The translations under genes were made by a program, and so were the position numbers. Positions 26,214 through 51,591 of a stretch of 64,000 nt of DNA are shown piece after piece. The notes under the pieces are model-generated. The model ran no database searches and had not been told where the DNA came from. It worked only from the letters and a program-made list of their open reading frames with translations. Source of the stretch: Ktedonobacter sp. SOSP1-85 (GTDB lineage: Bacteria > Chloroflexota > Ktedonobacteria > Ktedonobacterales > Ktedonobacteraceae); NCBI RefSeq assembly GCF_016587415.1, contig NZ_BNJI01000001.1, positions 2,891,501-2,955,500 of the forward strand, read 5' to 3'. Every line of letters begins with the position of its first letter. The stretch's first letter is position 1.

Positions 26214-26216
26214 TAT

Positions 26217-26283
26217 ATTATGATAAGGTGGGTGCGGTGGCGGCTGGCTGCGCCAGCCGCCACCGCACCCACCTTATCATAAT
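26217..26283. terminator. Perfect 32-bp hairpin after the sensor kinase
   Basis: Arms 26217-26248 and 26252-26283 are complementary at all 32 positions around a 3-nt loop. AT-rich stem ends give weak A and T tracts at either side. It lies 3 nt after the kinase stop and is likely a bidirectional terminator or transcript-end stabiliser. Confidence 0.7.
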
Positions 26284-26309
26284 AAAACCTGCAATCCTTC
26301 CTATGCTTA

Positions 26310-28402: not shown

Positions 28403-28507
28403 TTTGTAGGGTCCATGCTGGCATGGACTCATCCGGCCCGCAGGCCGACACCCTGACGCTAGGGAGGTCGCTTCGCTCGCAGTCCATGCCAGCATGGACC
28501 CTACAAA
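28403..28507. repeat. 27-bp perfect inverted repeat with internal hairpins
   Basis: Arms 28403-28429 and 28481-28507 match perfectly over 27 bp. Each arm contains its own palindrome GTCCATGC-TG-GCATGGAC, and the centre holds CGGCC-CGCA-GGCCG, so the region can form a cruciform. It lies between the dehydrogenase stop and the GH3 start. Confidence 0.7.
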
Positions 28508-32908: not shown

Positions 32909-32977
32909 CCCGACGCTACTAAAGTACGCGTCTACATATGCGCGTAATATGTAGACGCGTACTTTAGTAGCGTCGGG
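32909..32977. terminator. Perfect 31-bp hairpin between scpA and grpE
   Basis: Arms 32909-32939 and 32947-32977 are fully complementary with a 7-nt loop. The arm contains GACGCTACTAAAGTACGCG, which recurs at 43504 and in variant form at 43778, 46776 and 61930. It lies 15 nt after the scpA stop. Confidence 0.7.
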
Positions 32978-36476: not shown

Positions 36477-36561
36477 CTTAAAATTGCTCCTACTCGCAGC
36501 TTAACGTATGAGATAATCTTCCCTATTATAACGTGCAGTCAGGGGATTGAAAAGGTTTTGT

Positions 36562-36596
36562 GATGTGGCTGGTGGGCTCTGCCCACCAGCCACATC
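36562..36596. repeat. 16-bp perfect hairpin in a divergent promoter region
   Basis: GATGTGGCTGGTGGGC (36562-36577), 3-nt loop, perfect complement (36581-36596). It lies between two diverging genes, where neither transcript would end. Confidence 0.65.
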
Positions 36597-43775: not shown

Positions 43776-43862
43776 CCGCGCTGTTAAAGCACGCGCTTAT
43801 ATATGATGAGACGAGAAATGCCGTACCATTATATGTAAGCGCGTGCTTTAACAGCGCGGCCC
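43776..43862. repeat. Long inverted repeat upstream of the AIM24 gene
   Basis: CCGCGCTGTTAAAGCACGCG starting at 43778, with further pairing, has an inverted copy ending near 43861. The loop is about 25 nt. It ends about 14 nt before the GGAGGA ribosome-binding site of the AIM24 gene, so it would sit in that mRNA leader. The arm is a variant of the motif seen at 32911 and 61930. Confidence 0.65.
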
Positions 43863-44876: not shown

Positions 44877-44883
44877 CATTTAT

Positions 44884-44956
44884 ACCTCGTCAGCAATGGA
44901 AGGGGTGTGATGGCAGGCAAAGCCTGCCATCACACCCCTTCCATTGCTGACGAGGT
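44884..44956. terminator. Perfect 35-bp hairpin between convergent genes
   Basis: Arms 44884-44918 and 44922-44956 are complementary at all 35 positions around an AAA loop. It lies 7 nt after the AIM24 stop and 9 nt from the MEDS stop, so a bidirectional terminator is likely. It is the longest perfect stem in the window. Confidence 0.75.
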
Positions 44957-44965
44957 AACACTACC

Positions 44966-48080: not shown

Positions 48081-48803
48081 CTACTGATTGTCTAGCTCTT
48101 TGAAGCGGTATCCAATACCACGTTCCGTGAGTATATATTTAGGATGGGCTGGATCTTCCTCTAGTTTCTGGCGCAAATAGGTGATGTAGAGACGTAAATA
48201 GTGGGCCTCGTCGCGATACTCTCGCCCCCAGACCTTTGAGAGCAGGGTCTCGTGCGTCATCAGCCGCCCCGCATTGCTCACCAGGTGATAGAGAAGACGG
48301 TACTCCGTTGGCCGCAAGACGACCTTCTTGCCGCGCACCATGACCTCGCGACGCGCGAAGTCTATTTGCAGGTCTTCGTCGACCACGATCTCGGTCTTGC
48401 GCGCCGGGGGGGACATGAGCGAGCGGCGCAGCAGGGCGCGAATACGCGAGAGTAGTTCGGGTGGGCTGAAGGGCTTGGCGATATAGTCATCGGCTCCCAG
48501 GTCCAGCCCGCGAATCTTATCTTGCTCGCTCTGGCGCACCGTCAGCATCACCACAGGCACGGTCGAGACCTCGCGAATGGCTTTTAAGGTCTCGAAGCCG
48601 TCCATCTCTGGCATCATGACATCCAGGACTACCAGGTCAGGCAGGTGCTCGCGTAGCTGATCAAGCGCCTCCAAGCCATTACTGGCCTCGATAACGCGGT
48701 AGTGCTCCATTTCCAGGTTCATACGCACAAAGTCGCGGATGCGTGGCTCGTCATCCACAATTAAAATGGTCATATCACGCTGGTCGAAAACTTCATTCTC
48801 CAT
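48081..48803 (-). CDS. OmpR/KdpE-family response regulator
   Basis: 240 residues from the ATG at 48803. The receiver domain has [13 protein letters not shown], phospho-acceptor Asp in [18 protein letters not shown] and [10 protein letters not shown]. The winged helix has [31 protein letters not shown] and [28 protein letters not shown]. Its ATG overlaps the kinase TGA by one base (TGATG), so it is translationally coupled and is clearly the kinase partner. Confidence 0.95.
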
Positions 48804-50518
48804 CAAAACACCACCATCGGTAACTGTGCCTGCTTCTCGCGCGGCAGGCTAAACGAAAACGTTGACCCCTGACGCAGGGTACTCTCTACCCAGATCCGGC
48901 CCCCGTGAGCCTCCACGATGGCACGGCAGATGTAGAGGCCTAGACCCGTGCCTGGAGTGGACTGCGCCAGGGGATTGCCAATGCGGCGAAAACGCTTAAA
49001 AATCTGCTCCTGGTCGCGTAGTGAGATCCCCATGCCCATATCGCGTACGCTCACAATGACCTCGTTGCTGGTAGCACGCGCGGAAATGGCAATCTTAAGC
49101 TGGCCCGATGAATATTTGATCGCGTTATCCAGCAAATTTTGTAACACTTCTTCAATACGCTCGCGATCCGCCATGACACTCGGCAGGTCAGGCGATATCT
49201 CAAGCGTGGCCTGCAAGTCGGCGTAGCGAATCTGCAAGCGCCTGACGACTGTCTCGATCAGTGGCTCCAGATCCAGGGGCGCAATCTCCATCTGGAGGCC
49301 ATTGGCCTGGATACGCGAGGCATACAGCAGGTTCCCCACCAGCTTATTTAAGCGGTCGGCCTCCTCTTCAATCGCAACCAACCGCGTCTGCAAGGCCTGG
49401 GGCGCGAGGCGACTCCCAATACGCGCCAGGGTCGAGGCATAGCCCTTGATGATGGCAATGGGCGTCTGTAGCTCATGCGAGACCACAGAGATAAAGGTCG
49501 AGCGCTGCTCCTCCTGCTCGCGCTCCAGCGTGATATCATGCACCGTGAGAAAGCCATTGAGCAGTTCCCCACGCGCTGAACGAACACAGGAGGCAGTTAC
49601 ACGCACATCGACGGGCAGGCCATCACGCGTGGTAAAAATCATCTCGCGGTTGACGACACGCTGGCCCGCGAAGGCCTGCAAGATTGGCGATTCCTGCAAG
49701 CTTAGTTCATTGCCCTGCCGGTCGCGAGGACGCAGTACCGAGAAATATAATTCCCCCAATACCTCGCTTTCGCGCCACCCGGTCAACTTCTCCATGGCGG
49801 GATTAAAATCAATGATCCTTAGCGCGCTATCGACGGTCAGGAGGCCCTCGGTGCTATAGCGAAAGATGGAAGCCAGGCGCTCCTGCTCGCTCACCAGGGC
49901 CTGCGCCTTAAAGGCACAACGCAGGGACGCGGCCAGTTGCACAATAAACATGAGCAGAGTGGCGTTCTCCTCGCCTCCCTCTTCCGCGTCGGAGTCATAC
50001 GTACGCTTCCCCTGGCACACCCCCATCTTCTCTTCATGCACTTCAAAGCATGAGCGAGTACCGGTGGGGCGAAGAAAGTGCAGTGTCCCCAGCGGGCCTG
50101 CCGCATCAAAGACGGCGAGTGAGCAAACCTCTAGCTCGTGCCAGGACGCGTCCCTCTCCGGACCTGATGAAGGTGCTGCCTCAGACTCATGTGGCTCACC
50201 GCTGGCGTCATGCGTGCCGTTACTCTCCACCTGCTCCTCACCATACACCCTCCTGGCCCAGGCAGGCTCCAGAATCTCTATCACCATGGGGTGGCGCGAG
50301 GTAGGCTGCAAACCCTCCTGAACGCGCTGTAATAGATCAGGAGGCACCTCCGGGCGCAGGTGATAGGCGATATACTCAACGTTTCGCTGTGGATCAAAGG
50401 CCTCATTGGAGATGACAAAGACACCAGCATCGCTTCCTAGCAGTTGTATAGCGCTTCCAACCAGAAGAGTTACTTGGTCGTGCAGATCTTCGGACTGATG
50501 CAATTGAGACCAGGACAT
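48803..50518 (-). CDS. Sensor histidine kinase with GAF-like and PAS domains
   Basis: About 571 residues, no membrane spans, so a cytosolic sensor. Residues 1 to about 215 look like a degenerate GAF-type region split by a Glu/Ser-rich loop. A PAS domain follows ([29 protein letters not shown], then [14 protein letters not shown]). The phospho-acceptor His is in [18 protein letters not shown]-binding boxes are [17 protein letters not shown] and [18 protein letters not shown]. An upstream in-frame GTG (50536) is an alternative start; ATG 50518 has GGAG at 12 nt. Confidence 0.92.
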
Positions 50519-50737
50519 AGGAATAATAGACTCCACTCGACGTTTGATCTGGCAGATGTACGGGCTGGCCGGTTGAAAACCAGGAGTTCGTTAGAAGGTT
50601 AAAATTGCTTCTGTCAGTGTAGCACACCTCCTGGCAGAAAGAAAGATACTCTTTATGCGCACCTCCTGCTTTCTTGTCTTTTTTCCCCTCACTTGATATA
50701 CTTTTCTCTCAAAACAGATCACCACTGCGTGGCTCAC

Positions 50738-50800
50738 TGGGGTATTAGGATGTGTTGGTGGGCTGGCGGAGCCAGCCCACCAACACATCCTAATACCCCA
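50738..50800. repeat. Perfect 30-bp hairpin in a divergent promoter region
   Basis: Arms 50738-50767 and 50771-50800 pair perfectly with loop GGA. It lies between a minus-strand kinase start and the plus-strand trmD start, ending 38 nt before the trmD ATG. Neither neighbour terminates here, so it is not simply a terminator. Confidence 0.75.
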
Positions 50801-50838
50801 TGGAGACATACTGCTTCATTAACGACCGGAATATTATC

Positions 50839-51591
50839 ATGCATTTTGATATTTTTACCCTCTTCCCTGGCATGTTTCAGGGGCCATTAACTGAGAGCAT
50901 TCTCAAGCGCGCCCAGGACCGTGAGCTGCTGAGCGTGGCGCTCCACAACATTCGTAATGCCACAACGGATAAGCATCATGTCGTGGATGATTATCCCTAT
51001 GGTGGTGGCGCTGGCATGGTCATGAAGCCAGATCCCATCTTTAACGCCATTGAGGCGGTTCACCAGGGCGGTCCCATCATCTACCTGACGCCCCAGGGAC
51101 GCCTCTTTAACCAGCAGATCGCGCAGGACCTGGCACAGGAGTCGCGCATCACATTGCTGTGTGGGCACTACGAGGGCATCGATGAGCGCGTGATCCAGCA
51201 CCTTGTCACCGATGAAATCTCGATTGGCGATTATGTGCTCACAGGGGGCGAACTTGCAGCCATGATCGTTGTTGACGCGGTGAGTCGCCTCCTGCCCGGC
51301 GTTCTTGCCGAAGGCTCGACCACTGAGGAGTCGCACTCCAGCCATATGCTGGAATATCCTCACTACACACGCCCGCCCGAGTTCCGTGGCTGGCACGTGC
51401 CCGATGTCCTGCTCTCGGGACACCACGAACAGATCGCGCGCTGGCGCCGCAAGGAGGCCCTGAAGAAGACGCGCCTGCGCCGCCCCGACCTTTACGCCCA
51501 ACTCGACCTTACTAGCAAGCAAGATAAAAAACTGCTCAGGGAAATGGACGAAGAGGAGCGCGACAACCAATCCGGTAGGGACCCGCTTTAG
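50839..51591 (+). CDS. trmD: tRNA (guanine37-N1)-methyltransferase, ending inside a MITE
   Basis: 250 residues from [13 protein letters not shown]. The SPOUT trefoil-knot signatures are present: [26 protein letters not shown] and [17 protein letters not shown], with the catalytic Asp region [15 protein letters not shown]. TrmD adds the m1G37 methyl group that prevents +1 frameshifts. The final residues (GRDPL) and the TAG stop are encoded by the left end of MITE-like copy E. An upstream in-frame ATG at 50800 lies against the hairpin and is less likely. Confidence 0.95.

Follow-up and report, generated by a model that had tools for sequence, protein, structure and literature searches.

The region upstream of trmD in Ktedonobacter sp. 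SOSP1-85, from a genus of soil bacteria, raises the question of why a long perfect hairpin should lie between two genes that are transcribed away from each other. The window analysed here is a 64,000-nucleotide stretch of this genome (NZ_BNJI01000001.1, positions 2,891,501 to 2,955,500), and a first-pass annotation of it had described a perfect 30-bp stem with divergent genes on either side. This description proved accurate: the arms are fully complementary around a 3-nt loop, the kinase gene is on the minus strand and trmD is on the plus strand (Table 1). The trmD start was set at the ATG at 50839 because relatives align from that residue onward. A scan of the window returned 25 inverted-repeat pairs, among them several perfect ones whose arms measure 22–36 bp. 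The smaller hairpin at 36562 also stands in a divergent spacer, as had been pointed out, with flanking genes that start at 36477 (minus strand) and 36708 (plus strand); its K. robiniae orthologue measures 28 bp, and K. racemifer has a different, 23-bp hairpin.

Table 1. Features of the trmD locus and other hairpins, in positions of the window
Feature	Position	Strand	Basis or remark
33-bp untagged hairpin, 2 bp past stop	26216..26284	.	different, tagged hairpin there in K. racemifer
16-bp hairpin, divergent spacer, no intact tag seen	36562..36596	.	inverted-repeat scan
36-bp untagged hairpin between convergent genes, terminator-like	44883..44957	.	loop AAA; TTC in both sister species
PAS histidine kinase gene, divergent from trmD	48803..50536	-	PF02518, PF00512
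Predicted trmD promoter TTGTCT-17-TATACT, TG before -10	50674..50702	+	same hexamers and spacing in G001, G002, G003
Putative trmD mRNA leader holding both hairpins, start near 50709	50703..50838	+	position of predicted promoter
Diverged tag: stem CCAC, loop GCA, GATCTGT replacing consensus GAGAAGT	50714..50733	-	
Left arm of 30-bp perfect palindrome	50738..50767	+	inverted-repeat scan, orthologue alignment
Loop GGA	50768..50770	+	K. racemifer TCC (reverse complement); K. robiniae GGA
Right arm of 30-bp perfect palindrome	50771..50800	+	inverted-repeat scan, orthologue alignment
trmD, tRNA guanine-N1 methyltransferase	50839..51591	+	PF01746

The trmD hairpin is part of a swarm. In the 864 kb that we scanned of the source genome (G000; 11.0 Mb in three contigs) there were 169 perfect hairpins of at least 14 bp and 132 of at least 20 bp, and three first-order Markov resamplings of the same stretch gave one hairpin of at least 14 bp in total, so that neither the trmD hairpin nor the swarm is due to chance. 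Extrapolated to 11 Mb, the density of 15.3 per 100 kb corresponds to an estimated 1,600–1,700 long perfect palindromes per genome. Spacers were classified from 687 genes called with a small purpose-written script, not a standard caller. On this basis hairpins of at least 20 bp are densest in convergent spacers (41 in 13.7 kb, 3.0 per kb), followed by tandem spacers (70 in 107.3 kb, 0.65 per kb) and divergent spacers (17 in 47.1 kb, 0.36 per kb), with 4 of the 132 inside called genes. Since divergent spacers are the poorest of the three, the divergent setting is not the key to these structures.

Two classes can be distinguished within this population by the presence of a small conserved hairpin, the tag, beside the long stem. 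Untagged hairpins lie mostly within 35 bp of a stop codon (79/103, 40 of these 79 between convergent genes) and look like terminators, although a TTTT run stands at only 18 of the 107 hairpin sides that are this close to a stop. Tagged hairpins are placed differently, 23 of the 29 being away from stop codons and one being convergent. In tandem spacers the tag is turned towards the downstream gene in 14 of 18 cases and the opposite way in four by our own count, a weak orientation bias. Copies of a second palindrome family, whose stem is conserved around ACGCGTCTACATAT and whose loop measures 7–8 nt, stand in the window at 43776–43859 and 32909–32977 and, elsewhere in this genome, at C1:2705961 and C1:2719930. 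An inverted pair around TAGGGTCCATGCTGGCATGGACT at 28403–28507 recurs in K. racemifer and K. robiniae beside the orthologue of C1:2966184, where an inner CTTG/CAAG is swapped between species in a manner resembling an inversion.

The tag mostly reads GCGCC-GCA-GGCGC or GCCAC-GCA-GTGGC, and behind it comes GAGAAGT or a related sequence. With up to three mismatches allowed, a 20-base tag pattern has 157 copies in the source genome, against one for the reversed pattern, and 213 in K. racemifer (G001), 159 in K. robiniae (G003) and one in the fourth Ktedonobacter species (G002). Tags and long stems go together: 24 of the 30 best tag loci have a perfect stem of at least 23 bp within 15 nt upstream, and 67 of 88 tags have one of at least 16 bp within 20 nt. 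These 67 left flanks contain no conserved left end of the element. At C1:2983824, 3045712 and 2769316 the flanks hold an extra small hairpin of the GGCTCGC..GCGAGCC type beyond the far side of the long stem, and there may thus be a three-hairpin form. A stricter 16-base core of the tag occurs in 10 of 29 genomes and 3 of 13 genera of the family. Thirty core loci were fetched, of which 21 were inspected, the remaining nine being from Ktedonobacter. A perfect stem of at least 20 bp within 20 nt upstream of the tag is present at 12 of the 20 core loci from other genera, and at none of the three in G022 or the single one in G002. The same pair of hairpins was seen in G010 (genus g8) and in G011, G019, G024 and G026 (genus g9).

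The trmD hairpin counts as a copy of this tagged repeat by virtue of the diverged tag next to it. The minus strand beside the stem reads GCCACGCAGTGGTGATCTGT, the corresponding K. racemifer tag being GCCACGCAGTGGCGATCTGT; with four mismatches to the consensus and an orientation towards the kinase gene, the trmD tag has diverged enough for the filter to have missed it, which is why this hairpin is not among the 29 tagged ones. The trmD hairpin stretch itself has 24 matches in its own genome, counting itself. K. racemifer and K. robiniae both retain the palindrome and the tag at this position. Relative to K. racemifer, two inner stem positions have changed, each matched by a change on the opposite arm. 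The outermost pair also differs, and in place of the loop stands its exact reverse complement. Relative to K. robiniae, there is one changed inner pair, with both arms altered, and that species has a mismatch at the outermost pair. In G002, whose trmD region is 77.7% identical, the minus-strand tag with GAGAAGTC is kept and the long stem is broken. The element is therefore probably older than the split of the four Ktedonobacter species.

The same kind of change was found across the hairpin population when orthologous hairpins were aligned, with 330 kb covered in K. racemifer and 340 kb in K. robiniae, the compared DNA being about 95% identical. A stem was treated as kept if no more than two of its pairs were gapped, 55% or more were unchanged and at most 20% held an uncompensated site; these filters favour an arm-copying reading, and the stems had been selected for being perfect in one species. 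Kept stems contain 41 compensated pairs and 34 uncompensated sites over 754 pairs in the comparison with K. racemifer, and 32 and 30 over 915 pairs in that with K. robiniae. Had the arms evolved independently, with substitutions as frequent as in the flanks, less than one compensated pair would be expected. The filter dropped 8 of 35 sites for K. racemifer, 6 of 38 for K. robiniae and 12 of 35 when these two were compared with each other, and most of the dropped sites (6, 6 and 8, respectively) have their own perfect hairpin. Unfiltered, the counts are 69 compensated and 165 uncompensated over 992 pairs for K. racemifer (2.8 compensated expected) and 64 and 76 over 1090 pairs for K. robiniae (1.3 expected). 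Counted by site, 24 of 36 have a compensated change, and 11 an exactly inverted loop, in one or more species; a single one of these 11 loops is 1 nt long and thus little informative. Among changed 3-nt loops, 7 of 15 are exact reverse complements, which at 1 in 63 would have a tail probability of about 1e-9, although the sites are not all independent.

Persistence in both sister species was followed for 53 hairpins in the best shared stretch (about 305 kb). In K. racemifer 27 are kept, six are replaced by a different perfect hairpin, two sites are short or empty, two have decayed and 16 have no orthologous flanks; the corresponding figures for K. robiniae are 32, 6, 4, 0 and 11. The hairpins therefore stay in place while their letters turn over. 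Untagged stems in terminator positions show the same arm copying, which is thus not special to the tagged element. At C1:2973643 of the source genome, two species have a 24-bp hairpin that K. racemifer lacks between intact flanks, possibly a precise gain or loss of the hairpin.

Selection on RNA pairing could keep complementarity but would not invert loops, and the loop inversions accordingly argue against it. Copying from arm to arm, as described for template switching, accounts for both the kept complementarity and the inverted loops, and judging from the sequences, the compensated changes and inverted loops would be the footprint of template-switch copying between arms. Building on the observed element with its copies and orthologues, and on the compensated changes and inverted loops seen in them, we consider it probable that the trmD hairpin is a copy of a two-hairpin repeat of the Ktedonobacteraceae, itself probably non-autonomous, whose arms copy each other. 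The element would consist of a long palindrome, with stems of 20–39 bp and a sequence that varies from copy to copy, and the short conserved tag hairpin. The copy at trmD would have entered the 5' leader, tag facing the kinase gene, when the four Ktedonobacter species had not yet separated. During DNA replication the nascent strand may fold back or switch strands, so that an arm is copied from its partner and the loop is occasionally inverted. In three of the species such copying would have allowed the long stem to stay perfect, or nearly so, while its bases changed; in the fourth, G002, the stem has decayed. A bolder version, which we regard as speculative and rather unlikely, is that this is a new class of bacterial interspersed element in which the tag alone is passed on as sequence: the tag and one of the arms would move or arise, and fold-back copying would rebuild the second arm each time. 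If so, the long palindrome would be hypervariable yet always near perfect, and a replication or repair state of the lineage would make arm copying frequent enough to re-perfect terminators and repeats alike all the time.

The first-pass annotation had also placed the stem in the trmD leader or in both promoters. The former is favoured by a predicted promoter that lies upstream of the hairpin and has the same hexamers and 17-bp spacing in four species; since it ends at 50702, transcription should start near 50709, and the trmD hairpin would then be located in the trmD mRNA leader. Nothing supports a position in both promoters. A cis-acting leader RNA, such as an attenuator, an RNase III site or a 5' stabiliser, whose pairing is under selection as RNA, would agree with this placement, with a folding of the leader that exceeds that of shuffled sequences (z = -9.6) and with a stem that is kept with compensated changes in three species. 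We nevertheless hold such a role to be unlikely as an explanation, for the loop inversion seen in K. racemifer, and the recurrence of this pattern at many loci that are unrelated, point to a process at the level of DNA, tagged copies occur in tandem spacers in both orientations, and G002 has an intact trmD despite its broken stem, which suggests that the long stem is not essential. Searches with Rfam 15 gave only a tRNA over the gathering threshold in the window and no match over it in nine loci (the trmD locus and eight tag loci); miRNA models that matched at E values up to 10 were set aside as chance fits to the long stem. The trmD hairpin is most likely a tolerated passenger of the leader, any effect on the mRNA through RNase III cleavage or 5' protection being putative and secondary.

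An intrinsic terminator that stops leftward antisense transcription running from ftsK through trmD into the kinase gene, or that ends a small RNA, would place the trmD hairpin beside the untagged long hairpins that hug stop codons, and on the minus strand the tag hairpin followed by GATCTGTTTT does score as terminator-like. We find this reading quite improbable for the trmD copy, at which termination had been discounted from the outset, and rightly: no called gene ends at the hairpin, the spacer is divergent and not downstream of a gene, there is no T-run past either end of the long stem (TGGAGACATACT past the plus end and GTGAGCCACGCA past the minus end), and the tag puts the hairpin with the class that mostly stands away from stops; as for the terminator-like score, chance alone is expected to give 0.3 such sites in this region. 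A palindromic operator common to both divergent promoters would suit the position of the stem, but its sequence should be conserved, whereas the arms vary among hairpins and between sister species with symmetry alone being kept, so that it is very improbable. An assembly or sequencing artefact is scarcely conceivable, for although library preparation can reportedly create perfect inverted repeats (PMC3946424), three genome records, among them that of K. racemifer made from Sanger and 454 reads, have orthologous hairpins at this position.

The abundance of perfect hairpins is shared by the two sister species, with densities per 100 kb of 15.3 in the source genome, 13.0 in K. racemifer and 15.0 in K. 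robiniae; it is 3.3 in G002, 30 in G024 and 0–5 in nine other relatives (40 kb sampled each). The densest swarm met was in G024 (C1:2090001–2130000; loci L189 and L190), with 12 perfect hairpins of at least 20 bp in 40 kb, and its genus mate G022 has none in 40 kb. A lack of SbcCD was considered as the cause of this abundance and rejected. None of the 31 genomes searched in the order matches SbcD (TIGR00619) over the NCBIfam cut-off, compared with 8 of 14 control genomes, but the hairpin-poor relatives are also without a match, and the absence therefore does not discriminate.

The copy number of the tagged repeat, its patchy distribution and its species-specific sites suggest that it may be mobile, and we infer that it has spread by dispersal. 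A candidate insertion, where K. racemifer is about 190 bp longer than both sisters, has a clear edge at the tag side only, and the orthologue comparison contained no clean insertion with both ends defined. An origin from RAYT or IS200 elements was rejected: the tag was searched for with a near-exact pattern at the first 20 Y1 transposase loci and with up to four mismatches at the other 16, and it was found at none of these 36 loci, which cover all 42 Y1_Tnp matches. A link to TnpB was likewise dropped, the tag being present at one of the 30 loci looked at, those with the best scores among 150 matches, about the chance level. At the IS200-like loci L066–L078 a 22-bp hairpin with a 1-nt loop adjoins the Y1 gene, and the loop base is swapped in L074.

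Homogenisation of arms, several compensated changes at once and inversion of the loop or spacer are the changes reported for hairpins that evolve by template switching (Monttinen and Loytynoja 2022; Abraham and Hazkani-Covo 2021), in the parts of the accounts seen (PMC8794818, PMC8604942), and we found the same in Ktedonobacter, with multi-base compensated changes between relatives and loops replaced by their reverse complement. The cases in those parts concern RNA genes or coding repeats of yeast, whereas in Ktedonobacter the changes affect perfect long palindromes of intergenic DNA, which reach a density of about 15 per 100 kb and in part form a repeat family. The PATEs of Haloquadratum are short, heterogeneous elements without a transposase that have a palindrome near one end and a conserved terminal oligonucleotide (PMC3119063, in excerpt), and the tagged repeat resembles them in its shortness, in the heterogeneity of its copies, in lacking a transposase, in its near-terminal palindrome and in its conserved terminal oligonucleotide. 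PATEs insert without target duplication, a point on which the tagged repeat offers the one candidate insertion with a single clear edge. It differs in that the ends of PATEs are similar to those of IS605-type elements in the same host, according to the same excerpt, while the tag stands at none of the 36 Y1 loci and at 1 of the best 30 of 150 TnpB matches, and in having a long stem that is a palindrome differing from copy to copy. With REP sequences, for which the excerpted paper on REP/BIME and RAYT notes palindromes preserved by complementary changes (PMC2817692), the tagged repeat shares a high copy number of extragenic palindromes. It is set apart by two unequal hairpins, by a long palindrome that is mostly perfect where that of REP is imperfect, and by the fact that no Y1 gene is flanked by two inverted copies; in 30 tag loci inspected by eye, no GT(A/G)G head recurred at a constant position, the end being of the GAGAAGT type instead. 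The tagged repeat is therefore a full member of neither REP nor PATE.

Double-hairpin elements of Allomyces mitochondria consist of two hairpins whose stems vary while pairing is kept; they differ from the Ktedonobacter repeat in belonging to fungal mitochondria. Mitochondrial genes of Nematomorpha contain numerous long perfect inverted repeats with preserved pairing, which lie inside coding genes of an animal organelle, with neither a tag nor a scattered family in the abstract (PMC6649704). Mechanism and element type are thus each known in kind, and their combination was found in no paper of the literature searched. No earlier report of these hairpins was found there, to the extent that the sources could be seen: the text of the K. 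racemifer paper contains neither 'palindrom' nor 'hairpin', a 2026 paper on Ktedonobacteria replicons mentions, in the passages found, terminal inverted repeats alone, and Ktedonobacter goes unnamed in the accessible parts of two inverted-repeat surveys.

What is new is the membership of the trmD hairpin in an extensive and partly repetitive population of palindromes in which one arm appears to be copied from the other. The tagged repeat would add a new family, for which no mobiliser is known, to the PATE- and REP-like elements. It is customary to take compensated changes as proving that an RNA is functional, but in Ktedonobacter they and the inverted loops are so common that they resemble a mutation process, which calls for caution in inferring RNA function there. 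As there are cultured strains of Ktedonobacter, template switching in bacteria could be measured both in nature and in mutation-accumulation lines.
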